From the NCBI GenBank assembly GCA_902812465.1, contig CADDZE010000010.1:1-64000 (forward strand): 64,000 bases of DNA, given 5' to 3'. Below are positions 4,638 through 64,000 of this stretch, in pieces; position 1 is the first letter of the stretch, and each line of letters begins with the position of its first letter. The translations under genes were made by a program, and so were the position numbers. Source of the stretch: Acidobacteriota bacterium. Its GTDB lineage: Bacteria; Acidobacteriota; Terriglobia; UBA7540. The notes below the pieces were generated by a model. The model did no database searches. It had not been told where the DNA came from and saw only the letters and a program-made list of their open reading frames with translations.

Positions 4638-4784
4638 GCATCGTGCGTTGGGTTAACGTCGTCTCGATGGGGTTTACTTGTAAGCATTGGTTCGCGCTGT
4701 TTGCGGCGTAAAAATTATCGCCAATGTACACAGCGGTCGCCGGGACCGCCTGCCGGCGTGCCGTCTGGATGACGCAATACATAA

Positions 4785-4828
4785 TTTGACCAAACGAACC
4801 GGATATGTAGTTGAAAACAAAGGGTCGG
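4785..4828 (+). repeat. Dispersed repeat, copy A
   Basis: TTTGACCAAACGAACCGG followed by ATATGTAGTTGAAAA, then AAAGGGTCGG after one base. It matches copy B at 21556 and the reverse complement of copy C at 32016 almost base for base over about 33 nt; only one core base differs (TATGTAG for TATGTTG). It lies 116 nt before the TPR gene at 4945 and points toward it. Confidence 0.75.
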
Positions 4829-4928
4829 TAAAAAAGGATCGCGAGTTATCACGCGCGAATCGGCGCACCGTCCGCGGTGCTCAGGCCCTCCGTTGCTGGC
4901 TTAGGTCCGAGGGCCGGCTACCCCGTGC

Positions 4929-4944: not shown

Positions 4945-7329
4945 ATGGGCAGGACGAACTCGCAGGCGCGGCCCGCCTGGCCATACTTCGCTGTGACTTG
5001 GCTGGCCCTTTCGTGCCCAGGCCAGGCCCAGCAAACACCGAAGACCCCAGCTGCAGCCCACCTCCAGCGTGGGCTAGCGCTCCTCAGCCGCGAAGACTGG
5101 AAGGGGGCTGCGGCGGAATTTCGGACTGCACTTCGCCTGAACCCGAGGTCGGCAGAAGCCCATAACGGCTTAGGACTGGTCTATAAACAGGGCGACCAGT
5201 TACCCGAGGCGATTGCCGAATTTCGCCAGGCGGTGGCGCTGAATCCTGGTTTCATCCGCGCTTACAACAACCTGGGTTCGGCGCTGGTGAAGGCCGGGCA
5301 AGTCGACGAGGCGGTGCACGTGCTGCGCACGGCCGTCCAGCTACGGCCGCGCGACGTTCAGGCGCATCTCAACCTGGGCGTGGCGCTGCGTGGTGAGGGG
5401 AAGCCTGCCGCGGCAGTGGAAGAGTTTCGTACCGCGCTGGCCCTGCATCCCGAAGCCCGGATGGCCTATTACGCCTACTACCAGCTCGCCCAGGCGCAGC
5501 GTGAAAACGGGAACCTCGGGGCCGCGATTGATGCCTTTGAACGTGCCATCCGCCTGAATCCGGTCATGGGCGAGACCTACTACGGGCTAGGCTCCACGCT
5601 GCAGCAGATCGCTTCCCAGCACAAGCCACTACCGGCTCGTCCGGCTTCCTTCGAGCTGCAGGAGCGCATCCAGAACGGTGCCAGCAAGTTGGCGCAAGGC
5701 GACCTGGACGCGGCTCGGCAAGAACTGGCACGGGCCGTAGAGGCCGATCCCAACAACTCGCAGGCGCATAACCTGCTAGGCTACGTGCTGGCACAGGGCG
5801 GTGACCTGACCAGCGGGATTGCCGAGTTGAAGCGCGCGGTGGCGCTGGACGGAGCATCGGCGGACGCTCATTACAACTTGGGAGTGGCCCTGTGGTATTC
5901 GGGCCAGCGAGCACCGGCCATCGAGGAACTGCGCACCGCTCTGCGGCTCGATCCCGCCTCGGCCGAGGCTTATCAATTTCTGGGCATGGCGCTGAAGGAG
6001 ACGGGCGACCTAGAAGGAGCGCTGCGAAACCTCAGCCGCGCCCTGGCTTTAAATCCCAACTTCCTGCCATCCTACATGGACCAAGGCGTGGTCTTGCTCA
6101 AACTCGGTGAGGTGCGGGCGGCGCTGGTCCAAGTGGAAGAGGGACTCGATCTGGATGCGAAGGCCGCACAGGGCCAGGCGGACCTGAGCGAAGTCATTGC
6201 TGCTATTCGCCACGCTGTTGCGGGCAAGACGTCCTACCCCGAAGCGCACGACGTCCTGGGGCGGCTGCTGGGACGCCAGGGCGCCAGCGCGGAGGAGATT
6301 GCAGCGGAGTTTCGCGAAGCGATTCGCGAGAAGCCCGATTTCTTCGAGGCCCACAACAACCTGGGACTGGTCCTAGCGCAGGAAAACAAGGATGCGGAAG
6401 CGGTGGCCGAGTTCCGTGAGGCAATCCGCCTGAAGCCTGACTATGCTGACGCCCATGCCAACTTGGGTGCGGTGCTGATTGACACGTCGCTCGACGAAGC
6501 CATCGAGCACCTCGAGACGGCCATCAAGCTGCAGCCCAACCTGCTCAAGGCTCACTACAACCTGGCCATGGCCTACGGCCGGAAGGGCGACCTCGACGCG
6601 GAGATCGGGGAGCTGCGCAAACTGATCGCGATGGATCCCAACTCGGCAGAGAATGAGACCGCCTTGGGCAAGGCGTTGCTGCGGAAGAAGGCGCTCGATG
6701 AAGCCATCACCCACCTCCGCCTGGCGGTGCGGCTGAATCCCTCGCTAGGCGAAGCGCACTACCAGTTGGCGCTTGCCCTGGGCCGCTCGGGAAAGGGGGA
6801 AGAAGCGGAGCTGGAGATGAAGCGGGCCAACCAGCTCATCCGGGCCCAGGACCGCGCCCGCATCGCAGACCAGGACTTCCGCCAGGCGCAGCAGGAGCTT
6901 GCCAAGGGCGACTTCCAGCAGGCGGCCATGGAATTCGCCGAAGTCCTTCGGCTTGAACCCAACTCGGCGGAAGGACATCTAGGTTTGGGCCTGGCGCTGG
7001 TCCAGCAGGGTGACGGGGCCAAGGCGATCGCCGAGTTCCGGCAGGCGCAGCGGCTTAAGCCCGACTCTTACGACGCCGCCTTCAACCTCGGCCGGGCGCT
7101 ACTGGCAGGTGGCCAGGTGGACGACGCCGTCACCAGCCTGCAGGATGCGATCCGGTTGCGCCCTTCATCGGCTGAGGCTTACAACCAGTTGGGCCTCGCC
7201 CTGGCCCAGAAGGGAGACCGTCACGGCGCGATCGCTGCCTTCCGCGAGGCGCTGCGCGTCAATCCCCAGGGACCACAGGGCCGGCTGGCGCAGAATCATC
7301 TGGACGCGATTTTGAAGGGAGAACGCTGA
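4945..7329 (+). CDS. Secreted multi-TPR repeat protein (first gene of TPR-TPR-CRTAC1 unit)
   Basis: 794 aa from the ATG at 4945, chosen because it gives a signal peptide (hydrophobic segment FAVTWLALSC, likely cleavage near AQA, residues 27-29) and because the longer frame runs through a dispersed repeat. The mature protein is an almost continuous array of roughly twenty 34-residue tetratricopeptide units, with repeated N-x-A-x-A-H-x-N-L-G and A-I-A-E-F-R-x-A-I-R-L-x-P segments. TPR solenoids bind other proteins and no enzymatic domain is visible. It is followed after 1 nt by a second TPR gene and then a CRTAC1 gene, so it is probably the scaffold of a periplasmic or surface assembly. The specific partner is unknown. 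Confidence 0.85.
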   Translation: MGRTNSQARPAWPYFAVTWLALSCPGQAQQTPKTPAAAHLQRGLALLSREDWKGAAAEFRTALRLNPRSAEAHNGLGLVYKQGDQLPEAIAEFRQAVALNPGFIRAYNNLGSALVKAGQVDEAVHVLRTAVQLRPRDVQAHLNLGVALRGEGKPAAAVEEFRTALALHPEARMAYYAYYQLAQAQRENGNLGAAIDAFERAIRLNPVMGETYYGLGSTLQQIASQHKPLPARPASFELQERIQNGASKLAQGDLDAARQELARAVEADPNNSQAHNLLGYVLAQGGDLTSGIAELKRAVALDGASADAHYNLGVALWYSGQRAPAIEELRTALRLDPASAEAYQFLGMALKETGDLEGALRNLSRALALNPNFLPSYMDQGVVLLKLGEVRAALVQVEEGLDLDAKAAQGQADLSEVIAAIRHAVAGKTSYPEAHDVLGRLLGRQGASAEEIAAEFREAIREKPDFFEAHNNLGLVLAQENKDAEAVAEFREAIRLKPDYADAHANLGAVLIDTSLDEAIEHLETAIKLQPNLLKAHYNLAMAYGRKGDLDAEIGELRKLIAMDPNSAENETALGKALLRKKALDEAITHLRLAVRLNPSLGEAHYQLALALGRSGKGEEAELEMKRANQLIRAQDRARIADQDFRQAQQELAKGDFQQAAMEFAEVLRLEPNSAEGHLGLGLALVQQGDGAKAIAEFRQAQRLKPDSYDAAFNLGRALLAGGQVDDAVTSLQDAIRLRPSSAEAYNQLGLALAQKGDRHGAIAAFREALRVNPQGPQGRLAQNHLDAILKGER

Positions 7330-21432: not shown

Positions 21433-21555
21433 TTAATATCTGAGATTCGTCTTTGGACATTGGTAGCCTGTCGCATTTGTGGACGATGTAGTGCGCCTGG
21501 TCGGGTGCCAATGCGGCAGAGAAATCCTACCGGCGTGATGAGGAACAAATGTTGA

Positions 21556-21600
21556 TTTGACCAAACGAACCGGATATGTTGTTGAAAAATCAAGGCCGGG
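21556..21600 (+). repeat. Dispersed repeat, copy B
   Basis: TTTGACCAAACGAACCGG, then ATATGTTGTTGAAAA, then a downstream CAAGGCCGGG. Identical to copy A over the first 33 nt except one base. It points toward the TPR gene at 21747 and lies about 78 nt upstream of that gene's -35. Confidence 0.8.
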
Positions 21601-21677
21601 GTTTGAAATCCGTGGTGTCTCACCACACTCAGCTCCGATCCTCGCCGTCCCGGCAAAACGCCAACCAGCTCCATCTT

Positions 21678-21746: not shown

Positions 21747-23840
21747 ATGGGCGGAAGGATGGGGGCTGTAGCATTCAGCCTTTTTTTATTCGCCGGTGGG
21801 GGCTTCAGCCAGAGCAGTGCACCGCCGAAGCAAGTGACCGCCCCAGCTCAAGCCGCGCCTGGGAGCGCGCTTGCGCAGCAGCCTGACCACGCTGCGGCCT
21901 ACTATCACTTCATGCTCGCCCGGCGTTATCAGGAGCTGGCGGCGGGCTACAACCGGAGCGACTACGCCGACCGCGCCGTCTCCGAGTACGAGAAGGCTAT
22001 CCAGGCTGACCCGGAATCGCTCTTCCTGCGCGTGAACCTGGCTCAACTCTACTGGCGCATGGGTCGCATCGCCGACGCGGTGCGGGAAGCCGAAGGTGTA
22101 CTGAAGGCCAACCCTGACCAGGAAGATGCGCACCGCTTGCTGGCCAACCTTTACCTTCAGAACCTGGGCAACGGTCAAGGGCCGAAGGTGGCCAAGCAAA
22201 GCCTGGAGAAAGCCATCGAGCACTTTGAAGCCCTCACCCGCCTCGAGCCAAATCAAATCGATTCCTATGTGGTCCTGGGGCGCCTCTATCAGCTGAATAA
22301 CCAACGGACCAAGGCCGAGGAGGTTTTGAAGAAGGCGGTCGAGGCGGACCCCACCTCCCGGAATGCCATCAACGGTCTGGCGAAGCTCTACTTTGACCAA
22401 GGCCAGTACAGCGAGGTCGTGGATCTGCTGAAGCGCATTCCGGATGGGGAGAACGAACCGGGGACGCTAGCCATGCTCGGGCTGGCCTACGCTCAGTCGC
22501 ATCACCTGGTCGAAGCCTTAGATGCCTATCAGAAGGCGCTGGCGCAGGAGCCGGACAACGAGGAGGTGAGGCGCTATTACGCCGAGGCGCTCCTCGAGAG
22601 CGGTAAGACCGCCCAGGCGCGAGCCGAGTTGCAGAAGCTCCTTCAGGCGGACCCCCAGGACGGCTCCACCTACCTGCGCCTGGCTCAGCTTGACCGCCAG
22701 GAAGGGCACTTCGACCAGGCGCGCAAGGAATTGGATCGGGCCAAGGCTCTCCTGCCGGATGATATCGAGGTTCCGTATCAGGAGGTGCTGCTGGAGGAAG
22801 CCCTGGGGAACGAGGACAAGGCGGTCAGCATCCTGCAGGAGCTGTTGAAACAGTCCGAAAAGCCGGAGGGGAAGTACACCGTGGCGGAAGCGCGAGACCG
22901 CGCCATCTTCCTCGAACGCCTGGGGCTGATCTATCGTAATCAGGAGAAATACGATCAGGCCCTGGATGCTTTCCGTCAGATCGTTGCGCTGGGGCAGAAC
23001 CAGGAGCCCCAAGGCGAGGCCTTGATCATCGATACCTTGCGCCTCAGCCATCAGCCGCAGAAAGCGCTGGAAGAGGCGAACGCCGCCCTCGAGAAGTACC
23101 CGAAGGACCGCTCCTTGAAACTGCTGCGGGCTTCCCTCCTGGGCCAGCAGGGCAAGGTGGATCAGGCCGTGCAGTCCCTCGAACGTGAGCTTAAAGGCGG
23201 CCCGCAGGACCGCGACGTGTACGTGGCGATCGCCCAGATCTACTCCGACGCGAAGCGCTACAAGGACGCCGAAGCCGTGTTGCAGAAGGCGCTCGCCGCA
23301 GATCCCAAGGTGGAAGACCAGGAATTCGCTATCTTCCTCCTGGGTTCGGTCTACGAGCGGCAGAAGAAATACGACGAGGCGGAAGAGCAGTTCAAGAAGG
23401 TTCTGGCGCAGGATCCCCTGAATGCTGCCGCGGCCAACTACCTGGGATACTTGCTCGCCGACCGCGGCATTCGCCTCGAGGAGTCGGTAAAATATATTCA
23501 GAGGGCGCTGCAGATCGAACCCAACAACGGCGCTTACCTCGATAGTCTTGGCTGGGCCTACTACAAGATGAAGCGCTACGACCTGGCGCAGCCGCCGCTG
23601 GAGAAAGCCGCGCGCCTGATGCGGACCGATCCCACCATCCTCGAGCACCTCGGCAAGCTCTACCTGGCCCAGGGTAAAACTCAGGAGGCGGAAGAGCAGT
23701 GGGAGCGCGCGCTCAAGGTTTGGCCCAACGCGGTGGGGAGCGATTTCGATGCCGAAGAGGCCGCGCGGCTGCAAAAGCAGCTCGATGAGTTGAAGCTTCG
23801 CCTGGCGCGGCAGAAGGCTGGCAACGAGAGCCGCGAATAA
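21747..23840 (+). CDS. Secreted TPR repeat protein
   Basis: 697 aa. The start at 21747 is supported by the promoter upstream and a clean signal peptide (VAFSLFLFAGGGFSQS). The mature protein is a TPR superhelix of about sixteen units with linkers (for example AAYYHFMLARRYQELAAGY, YLDSLGWAYYKMKRYDLA). The last block (DSLGWAYYKMKRYD..., LEHLGKLYLAQGKTQEAEEQWERAL) is the pattern frequent in outer-membrane-associated TPR proteins. No catalytic domain is seen. It is monocistronic by spacing. The partner is unknown; it is the third long TPR protein in the window. Confidence 0.82.
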   Translation: MGGRMGAVAFSLFLFAGGGFSQSSAPPKQVTAPAQAAPGSALAQQPDHAAAYYHFMLARRYQELAAGYNRSDYADRAVSEYEKAIQADPESLFLRVNLAQLYWRMGRIADAVREAEGVLKANPDQEDAHRLLANLYLQNLGNGQGPKVAKQSLEKAIEHFEALTRLEPNQIDSYVVLGRLYQLNNQRTKAEEVLKKAVEADPTSRNAINGLAKLYFDQGQYSEVVDLLKRIPDGENEPGTLAMLGLAYAQSHHLVEALDAYQKALAQEPDNEEVRRYYAEALLESGKTAQARAELQKLLQADPQDGSTYLRLAQLDRQEGHFDQARKELDRAKALLPDDIEVPYQEVLLEEALGNEDKAVSILQELLKQSEKPEGKYTVAEARDRAIFLERLGLIYRNQEKYDQALDAFRQIVALGQNQEPQGEALIIDTLRLSHQPQKALEEANAALEKYPKDRSLKLLRASLLGQQGKVDQAVQSLERELKGGPQDRDVYVAIAQIYSDAKRYKDAEAVLQKALAADPKVEDQEFAIFLLGSVYERQKKYDEAEEQFKKVLAQDPLNAAAANYLGYLLADRGIRLEESVKYIQRALQIEPNNGAYLDSLGWAYYKMKRYDLAQPPLEKAARLMRTDPTILEHLGKLYLAQGKTQEAEEQWERALKVWPNAVGSDFDAEEAARLQKQLDELKLRLARQKAGNESRE

Positions 23841-31324: not shown

Positions 31325-31834
31325 TCACCGGTGTAGGACGGCTTCTTTGAACGTCCCGTGCTGCTGCTCGATCTTTTTCTGCAGCATCATGATGGCGTAG
31401 ATCAGCTGTTCGGGACGCGGGGGGCATCCGGGCACATAGACGTCGACCGGGACGAACTGGTTGACGCCCTGCACGATGGCGTAGTTGTTGAAGACTCCGC
31501 CGGAAGTGGCGCAAGCGCCCATCGAGATGACCCACTTCGGCTCTGGCATCTGTTCGTAAAGCCGCTTGATGACCGGGGCCATTTTCTGGGAGACACGACC
31601 GGCCACAATCATCAGGTCCGATTGCCGGGGCGAGCCGCGGAAGACCTCCATCCCGAAGCGCGCGATATCAAAGCGCGAGGCGGACATGGACATCATCTCG
31701 ATGGCACAGCAAGCCAGGCCAAAGCTCATGGGCCACAGCGACGACTTGCGCGCCCAGTTCACGGCCTTGTCCAACTGAGTGAAGATCAGGCCTTCAAACC
31801 CGGAAGACGCAGGCGCTAACGCCAAATTCTCCAT
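31325..31834 (-). CDS. nuoB: NADH-quinone oxidoreductase subunit B
   Basis: 169 aa. Cluster N2 ligands are all present: adjacent Cys42-Cys43 (GLACCAIEM), Cys108 (MGACATSGG) and Cys137 ([10 protein letters not shown]). The subunit carries the last Fe-S cluster before quinone in complex I. The start at 31834 gives the usual N-terminus; the longer frame begins with a TTG and has no family resemblance. No other nuo gene is in the window, although nuoB normally sits between nuoA and nuoC. A TATAAT ends 7 nt before the start. Confidence 0.93.
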
Positions 31835-31999: not shown

Positions 32000-32050
32000 C
32001 AACCCCGGTCCTTTCTTTTCAACAACATATCCGGTTCGTTTCGTCAAAAT
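32000..32050 (-). repeat. Dispersed repeat, copy C
   Basis: Read on the minus strand it contains GACGAAACGAACCGG, ATATGTTGTTGAAAA, then AAAGGACCGGGGTTG. Orientation is toward nuoB, about 130 nt upstream of its -35. Identity with copies A and B spans more than 30 nt. Confidence 0.8.
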
Positions 32051-32412
32051 CACTTTTTGCTACGCGAACCGAGCCGCGGCCTTTCGAAAACGTTCTCCTT
32101 GTCGACAACGTAGACGCCGCGCACACTTCTGAAGCGCGTCGACGATGTATGCAGGCTGAAGCGGTTGCTGGCGGGGTCCGGGTTGCTGACAGAAGCGAGG
32201 GAAGAGGCTCTCTTTCCCTCTAGCAGCGGGGTAGCCGCAGGTCGACGGGCTCCGAACGCGCCCCCGCTGGGACAGTTTAGGTGCCTCGTTCCTGGACCTG
32301 GGCGAGGTGGCTCCTCCGGCCTCGCCGCCTGTTCCCTCGCGCAGGCCAAGCCATCTCTACTGACCTCCCGCGTTTGGGGAGGCCGAAAGTCTATTCCGCC
32401 GCGTCGAGCCCC

Positions 32413-61967: not shown

Positions 61968-61975
<8 letters not shown>
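61436..61975 (-). CDS. VanZ-family membrane protein
   Basis: 179 aa with four or five membrane helices. [38 protein letters not shown] and [13 protein letters not shown] are the VanZ signature (K-x-x-H-x-x-x-Y and D-E-x-x-Q with the following D). The family is named for teicoplanin resistance, but most members have unknown function; no glycopeptide-resistance genes are near. It starts inside the end of guaB (8-bp overlap). Confidence 0.85.
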
Positions 61976-63425
<1,450 letters not shown>

Positions 63426-63474
63426 GTTCTCCTCTTAAGGGGATTGGATATCAGGCTGGCGAGAGCCATAGGCA

Positions 63475-63503
63475 ATTCTAATGGCCAGCGCGCGGGGCGT
63501 CAA
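63475..63503 (-). promoter_or_regulatory. Promoter of guaB
   Basis: Minus strand: TTGACG (63503-63498), 17-nt spacer, TAGAAT (63480-63475). The leader would be about 43 nt and includes the ribosome site. Confidence 0.65.
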
Positions 63504-63607
63504 GGTGGGGGCTCCAGGCGAAAGGGCGGATCAACCATCGTAGCGCGGGTTTCTGAACGACGATCCCCCGGGAGGCGGTCGGAGACAGCCGCTACGGCGC
63601 CTCAACG

Positions 63608-63640
63608 AATTTTCAACAACATAGTGGGATTCACCAAGGA
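63608..63640 (-). repeat. Dispersed repeat, copy D
   Basis: Minus strand: TTGGTGAATCCCAC then TATGTTGTTGAAAATT. The 14-nt core (63610-63623) is identical to copies B and C; the 5' flank differs (GAATCC in place of GAACCGG). Confidence 0.65.
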
Positions 63641-63672
63641 TTCTCAAAAAAGTCAGAAAGATGAGGCAAATC

Positions 63673-63708
63673 GGCCCTTTATTTTCAACAACATAATAGG
63701 ATTCTCCG
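63673..63708 (-). repeat. Dispersed repeat, copy E
   Basis: Minus strand: GGAGAATCCTAT, then TATGTTGTTGAAAA and TAAAGGGCC. Core at 63682-63695. The 3' flank AAAGGGCC matches copies A and C, so the shared unit extends beyond the core. Confidence 0.7.
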
Positions 63709-63723
63709 TGGCCCAATCTAATA

Positions 63724-63758
63724 TCTTGTTTATTTTCAACAACATATTGGGATTTATT
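63724..63758 (-). repeat. Dispersed repeat, copy F
   Basis: Minus strand: AATAAATCCCAA then TATGTTGTTGAAAATAAAC. Core at 63733-63746, 51 nt from copy E (copies D and E are 72 nt apart). Confidence 0.65.
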
Positions 63759-64000
63759 GCTACCCCGGATTTTTCTCGCGTGGTCACCCTCTTGGTTTCT
63801 ACACGCGGTACGTGGTCGAACTACCTGTCATAGCCATAACCATTATTAAATCAATGTATTATACGATTAATGGTTTGCGCCTGGCACGAAGCCACGCAGC
63901 AAAGATTACCTTTGCTGTGGGTGCTGCCTTAAGCGTCGCCGGCACCGCCAAGAGGCCCAGGGTCGGCTAAGGTCTGGAGAGCTAAATTCAGCGGGGCTGC

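Follow-up and report, generated by a model that had tools for sequence, protein, structure and literature searches.

A dispersed, non-palindromic intergenic repeat family upstream of guaB and many unrelated genes in one family of Acidobacteriota

Main finding

The array of repeats upstream of guaB in the genome studied here is one of 11 copies of a dispersed composite, and is not specific to guaB. The composite belongs to a family of non-palindromic intergenic repeats that is confined, among the genomes searched, to a single family of Acidobacteriota. Its elements lie upstream of many unrelated genes and, in the genome that contains the window (the 64,000-nucleotide stretch of DNA analysed, hereafter the window genome), they nearly always point in the direction of the gene; elements of the simpler of its two classes, class 1, often stand at a preferred distance from a sigma-70-like promoter. 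Taken as a whole, these features suggest a dispersed repeat whose core would be recognised by a putative factor acting upstream of sigma-70 promoters. We infer the regulatory step from sequence and placement, and give this reading a probability of about 0.5.

The array upstream of guaB

The features on which the analysis rests are as follows, in coordinates of the window.

61968 to 63425, minus strand: guaB, IMP dehydrogenase (IMPDH) with CBS domains
63475 to 63480, minus strand: guaB -10 box TAGAAT, after a 17-nt spacer
63498 to 63503, minus strand: guaB -35 box TTGACG; such a promoter is present at 30 of 30 guaB loci in the family
63595 to 63780, minus strand: whole class 2 composite at guaB (profile R2 match, 165 bits, E 1e-48; alignment A2)
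63609 to 63635, minus strand: unit D, the nearest to guaB, at 105 nt from the -35 box
63681 to 63707, minus strand: unit E, middle
63732 to 63758, minus strand: unit F, AATCCCAATATGTTGTTGAAAAT, distal to guaB
4776 to 4829, plus strand: class 1 copy A, ahead of the gene for a TPR-repeat protein, start near 4945 (profile R1, 55.7 bits; Pfam)
21546 to 21601, plus strand: class 1 copy B, ahead of the gene for a TPR-repeat protein, start near 21834 (R1, 64.7 bits; Pfam)
32003 to 32057, minus strand: class 1 copy C, upstream of nuoB (31325-31834, minus strand) (R1, 62 bits; NCBIfam)

The original prediction described three units before guaB in one orientation, and these were confirmed at 63609-63758, all in guaB sense on the minus strand, with start spacings of 72 and 51 nt. 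The nearest unit does lie 105 nt from the -35 box of a promoter of the form TTGACG-17-TAGAAT, and the distinct 5' flanks that had been reported (GAATCC or AAATCC in units D-F, GAACCGG in copies A-C) are as stated. A 14-mer core shared by these copies has six matches in the window at up to two mismatches, against 0.08 expected from shuffles, and an exact search of the 3.9-Mb genome gave 40 copies of it, the reversed control giving 0. No inverted repeats were found in 63000-64000.

A coding repeat was also considered (FNNIxGF, with spacings that are multiples of three, in a plus-strand ORF of 312 aa); it was rejected because this ORF runs antisense over guaB and because an ORF call overlies only 4 of 73 class 1 sites. 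Past the window end, at L011:3105-3869 (contig 64104-64868), a 254-aa minus-strand ORF with a Gly- and Lys-rich part lies upstream of the array; if it is real, the array would sit between co-directional genes.

Two classes of a dispersed repeat

That two subfamilies may exist had been proposed from the flanks alone, and they are found genome-wide, with 80 matches to the class 1 profile and 11 to the class 2 profile. Class 1 is a single site with a consensus of nearly WTTTGACSAAACGAACCGGATAWGTKRTTGAAAAWCRAGG (alignment A1, 72 sequences); its 80 profile R1 matches are those at E<=0.01, the weakest three scoring 17.8-30.5 bits, and 73 were placed, six not having been fetched and one carrying an indel (the rows include the double sites L102 and L118). 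Class 2, the guaB type, spans about 190 nt and is a composite in which three units of GAATCCCAYTATGTTGTTGAAAATAAA are separated by similar intervening sequence; profile R2 finds it at 11 places. The core GTTRTTGAAAAY is common to both classes, and the element is bipartite, a lineage-specific left arm being joined to this sequence as a constant right arm. A pair of TGTCTCA motifs stands between units in class 2 of the window genome.

The layout recurs at the other class 2 copies, so the 72/51 spacing is the anatomy of a dispersed element and not a product of guaB. Local tandem amplification, which would explain three similar units standing close together, is refuted at this locus by the dispersed copies, since the same three-unit layout with similar inter-unit sequence is found elsewhere in the genome. 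The composite also stands at 10 other places, mostly before unrelated genes, which does not support the proposed cooperative operator specific to guaB or to purine synthesis. What survives of the original interpretation is a set of repeated sites in one orientation, in two subfamilies, upstream of a promoter.

No RNA signal was found in the elements. Alignments A1 and A2 each yielded 0 consensus pairs, and no Rfam family matched the elements or, at gathering score, any part of the window; in 10 loci searched at E<=0.1 there were a tRNA in L070 and a weak AsdA match in L089, neither overlapping a site. An RNA element, riboswitch or structured leader was accordingly rejected. As DNA, the 33-nt class 1 core is unevenly conserved, with 27 columns at least 95% identical and four below 70% (heterogeneity chi2 630, df 32). 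Uniform decay would not give this pattern; change is concentrated where it is tolerated, which is what recognition of a specific sequence would produce. Over its 33 nt the core carries about 61 bits, where 16.6 bits would suffice to locate 80 sites, and this excess over the need of an ordinary regulator site suggests spread by copying as well.

It is here that the main rival to a bound core arises: a targeted mobile element, that is, a non-autonomous (selfish) repeat inserted upstream of active promoters in one orientation, for which regulation would be unneeded. We consider this possible, though with a probability well short of even. Core conservation beyond what a binding site needs speaks for it. 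So do the shortened composites C16 and C18 (2 of the 11 class 2 copies), which have two units only, as deletion between units would leave, and which look like recombination between units. Against it, an element of this kind might be expected to show inverted repeats or consensus pairing, and there are none.

Direction and distance to promoters

Genes were called with our own codon-usage script, so starts are approximate and some genes are missed (for example, the 254-aa ORF described above). Among class 1 sites with a called downstream gene, 68 of 71 point toward that gene (p 5e-17). Where both neighbours were called (n=69), 38 sites lie between divergent genes, 28 lie between co-directional genes and run with them, none runs against them, and three are convergent. 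Among class 2 copies, 8 of 11 share the direction of the first gene called downstream, or 9 when a short, weak antisense ORF at L061 is left out of account; the exceptions are L057, with the opposite direction, and L060, which has no downstream call.

The promoter scan covered 71 of the 73 class 1 sites. The best downstream promoter reached at least 11 bits at 26 of these, the other 45 having none that strong, and its -10 box fell 130-169 nt from the element start in 14 of the 26 and elsewhere in 12. At the 14 peak sites the core end is 81-112 nt from the -35 box, a range with which unit D at guaB (105 nt) agrees. For promoters of at least 9 bits, the bin 140-159 held 19 hits, compared with 3 in shuffled sequences. 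No fixed promoter distance was found among class 2 copies; the constant orientation and promoter-relative position expected of regulon sites are present, the position in class 1 only.

The genes downstream have little in common. The 39 of 74 class 1 target proteins that were named individually have unrelated functions, and include aroA, nuoB, recN, mutS, sucC, relA/spoT, thiC, trpD and glgA, together with leuA, trigger factor, uvrC, ksgA, TPR proteins and outer-membrane receptors. Over all 74 targets, TPR repeats (8 members) and outer-membrane barrels (4) are the most frequent Pfam families, and there is no transposase among the 25 target families listed of 129.

Orientation and placement are most likely explained, we infer, by binding of the core as DNA and an effect on the downstream promoter. 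In such a mechanism, a putative and probably lineage-specific protein would bind the core as duplex DNA and would modulate or organise a promoter some 80-110 nt downstream. Copying or gene conversion would have spread the copies and made them alike, so that each genus came to have a dialect of its own, and selection would retain those copies with a useful place and orientation; the array at guaB would then be an optional upstream module and not an essential operator. The unrelated targets, the variable promoter distances of class 2, the 12 of 26 class 1 promoters outside the peak and the 45 sites with no promoter of that strength count against this reading, as do the weaker orientation bias and different geometry in G009, the targets that mostly differ between genera and a core richer in information than a regulator site requires.

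Distribution and the guaB locus in relatives

Among the 151 genomes sampled from the class, the 12-mer core GTTRTTGAAAAY is enriched only in the family of the window genome (f1). Twelve of the 30 family genomes have 19-77 copies (53 in the window genome, 77 in G009, 70 in G014 and 58 in G023) and counts are 1-17 in the remaining 18, compared with 0-11 in the 121 genomes outside the family. At E<=0.001, 17 of 39 family genomes contain matches to the class 1 profile, with strong matches only in the window genome (79), G009 (61), G023 (52), G054 (15), G050 (11) and one contig of G014 (4). Class 2 occurs at full length in the window genome only, with weak partial matches of at most 33.5 bits in 15 others.

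At guaB itself, the search covered the 600 nt before a TFDDVLL motif near the protein start, less being available in G013, G023 and G001. A core with at most one mismatch is present in 6 of the 30 family loci (the window genome, G009, G014, G016, G017 and G047), always in guaB direction and 105-284 nt from the -35 box, with at least two cores in four of them (the window genome, G009, G014 and G017); on the reverse strand, matches appear only at two mismatches (G043, G045, G047). No core was found in the other 24, three of which had less than 600 nt available. The guaB promoter scores at least 13.6 bits in all 30, and in 27 its -35 box lies 95-108 nt before the motif. With the promoter in 30 of 30 and the core in 6 of 30, the array is dispensable for guaB in this family.

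The original prediction had itself named the guaB regions of relatives as the comparison that could refute it, and the outcome, 24 of 30 without a core and with the promoter kept, goes against a purine-specific role. The six loci that have oriented cores are a counterweight: by a rough estimate the element precedes 1-2% of genes in a core-rich genome, and 6 of 30 looks above chance. These cores reflect either ancestral retention or repeated gain. An array of cooperative sites for a purine regulator of guaB would fit these six loci, as it would three units in one orientation near a promoter, but the composite before unrelated genes, the core-free relatives with intact promoters and a spacing that belongs to the repeat's own anatomy leave this explanation largely refuted and very improbable. 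Repeated sites in front of a gene are not necessarily its operator.

Comparison with known intergenic repeats

One close likeness is to the pneumococcal BOX elements (boxA-boxBn-boxC), which are described as intergenic composites whose internal units vary in number, present in tens of copies, with little relation to the function of neighbouring genes and able to affect their expression (PMC3049150). Class 2 is similarly composite, dispersed and intergenic, with a variable unit number (11 copies, two of them with two units). BOX elements differ in having predicted RNA stem-loops and in being over-represented between convergent genes (PMC3049150), whereas here there are no consensus pairs, and in the window genome nearly all elements stand upstream of a gene and share its direction. 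The convergent placement of BOX and RUP, which are read as mobile (PMC3049150), is also a point against mobility of the present elements, which are not so placed.

REP/GTAG sequences with RAYT and TIR families with TIRYT transposases, one of the latter reported in Koribacter versatilis (Acidobacteria), resemble this family in being dispersed, short, extragenic and lineage-specific (PMC3733652). Their palindromes or terminal inverted repeats have no counterpart here, and the inverted pairing of a MITE was likewise not found. Nor is there a linked Y1 transposase, as mobility by that route would predict. No Y1 match at E<=1e-5 occurs in the window genome or in G014, both core-rich, and Y1 transposases are present in the core-poor G002, G003, G020 and G022; of 57 Y1 matches in relatives, 30 loci were fetched, and a core with at most one mismatch was present in just one of them. 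As to carriage on mobile DNA, no exact core match was found in viral contigs, and no plasmid match was found for one class 2 copy.

Two further systems bear comparison. The MIRU of mycobacteria are intergenic direct repeats oriented with neighbouring genes; in the present family, by contrast, the core is common to several genera and the arms vary. Sites of global regulators, as in regulons of the Fis, Lrp or CRP type, occupy duplex DNA at a favoured position ahead of many promoters, while the elements described here have about 33 nearly fixed base pairs, are non-palindromic and carry information far above need. No description of this repeat family was found in the openly licensed papers searched. 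The bacterial intergenic repeats set beside it here are palindromes, form RNA structures or take little account of which way genes run, and the present family may represent a genome-wide, promoter-side DNA element of a new kind. If so, its orientation, placement, constant core and dialects would make it a tractable case of a network of cis-elements evolving with the factor that recognises it.

Divergence between genera and species

The left arms differ by genus (ACGAACCGG, ACGAAGCC, AAGTCCCAC, GAATCCCAC) and the right arm is the same. The element of G009, in genus g10, spans about 330 nt and is composite, with two or three cores about 66 nt apart; 35 loci were fetched for its 61 matches, two cores per locus being common, and two matches at contig ends were dropped. 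A short iterated TGGGACAAATGGGACGAATGGGACAAA stretch stands ahead of the cores in the upstream part of these elements (L213-L247). Orientation is less strongly biased in G009 (26 of 35, p 0.006), and in 17 of the 35 elements (L213-L247) a TTGACW-16/18-TAGYCT sequence precedes the first core, mostly 80-82 nt ahead, so that the geometry differs from that of the window genome. Judged from these motifs, such elements may carry their own promoter.

This start, together with the single orientation relative to genes, is what would be expected of a transcribed leader or small-RNA element acting in the 5' untranslated region. We regard that explanation as improbable: no shared RNA fold was found for class 1 or class 2, no Rfam family matched an element, and the recognisable promoters of the window genome peak downstream of the element, which would therefore not be transcribed from them.

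Between species of g10, positions are partly kept. An element was found at the place orthologous to a G009 element in 11 of 23 sister-species loci (G054 7 of 10, G023 4 of 13), within 72 nt; L259, with its core about 2 kb from the expected place, was left out of this count. Paired cores of G009 and its sisters are 83-100% identical, compared with 18-67% in the sequence lying 200-300 nt beyond the start of the core, a difference that is partly ascertainment because the sites were found by their cores. The motif CCGGA of G009 is CCCGA in G054 at 6 of 7 orthologous sites and across the G054 set, which indicates that copies change together.

These comparisons bear in both directions on a selfish repeat inserted before promoters. 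Positions partly kept within a genus speak against it; lineage-specific dialects and copy numbers favour it, as do targets that mostly differ between genera. Of 28 proteins encoded downstream of elements in G009 (26) and G023 (2), a single one matches a class 1 target of the window genome, and at that count no regulon common to the window genome and g10 was found; apart from this one protein and guaB, no related targets conserved across relatives and no functional theme emerged.

Recognition by a factor and spread by copying could be combined. Yeast Ty elements spread to a set place at tRNA genes, and it is conceivable, though doubtful, that the spread of the present element is limited to a set position and direction ahead of active sigma-70 promoters, that its site of about 33 bp, non-palindromic, is recognised by a lineage-specific putative factor, and that a change in the preference of this factor would make the copies change dialect together.

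Some loci point to rearrangement. At L269 in G054, the upstream side and the element align to L233 of G009 and the downstream gene to L223 of G009; the locus looks like a recombination of two element loci, as recombination between copies would produce, which also favours a selfish repeat, and the repeats may serve as rearrangement breakpoints. In G023, several class 1-like matches stand at the ends of contigs C2, C27, C35, C52 and C58, so the repeat probably breaks assemblies. In G014 ('Acidobacteria bacterium isolate 17'), all four class 1 matches are on one 100-kb contig, C5 (CADDZC010000005.1; L051, L052, L134, L151, L161), and other G014 loci show another dialect; this contig may be mis-binned or acquired. 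When 8 kb of the class 1-bearing G014 contig was compared with the window genome in search of an orthologous empty site (40 of 110 candidates scored), only the element matched.
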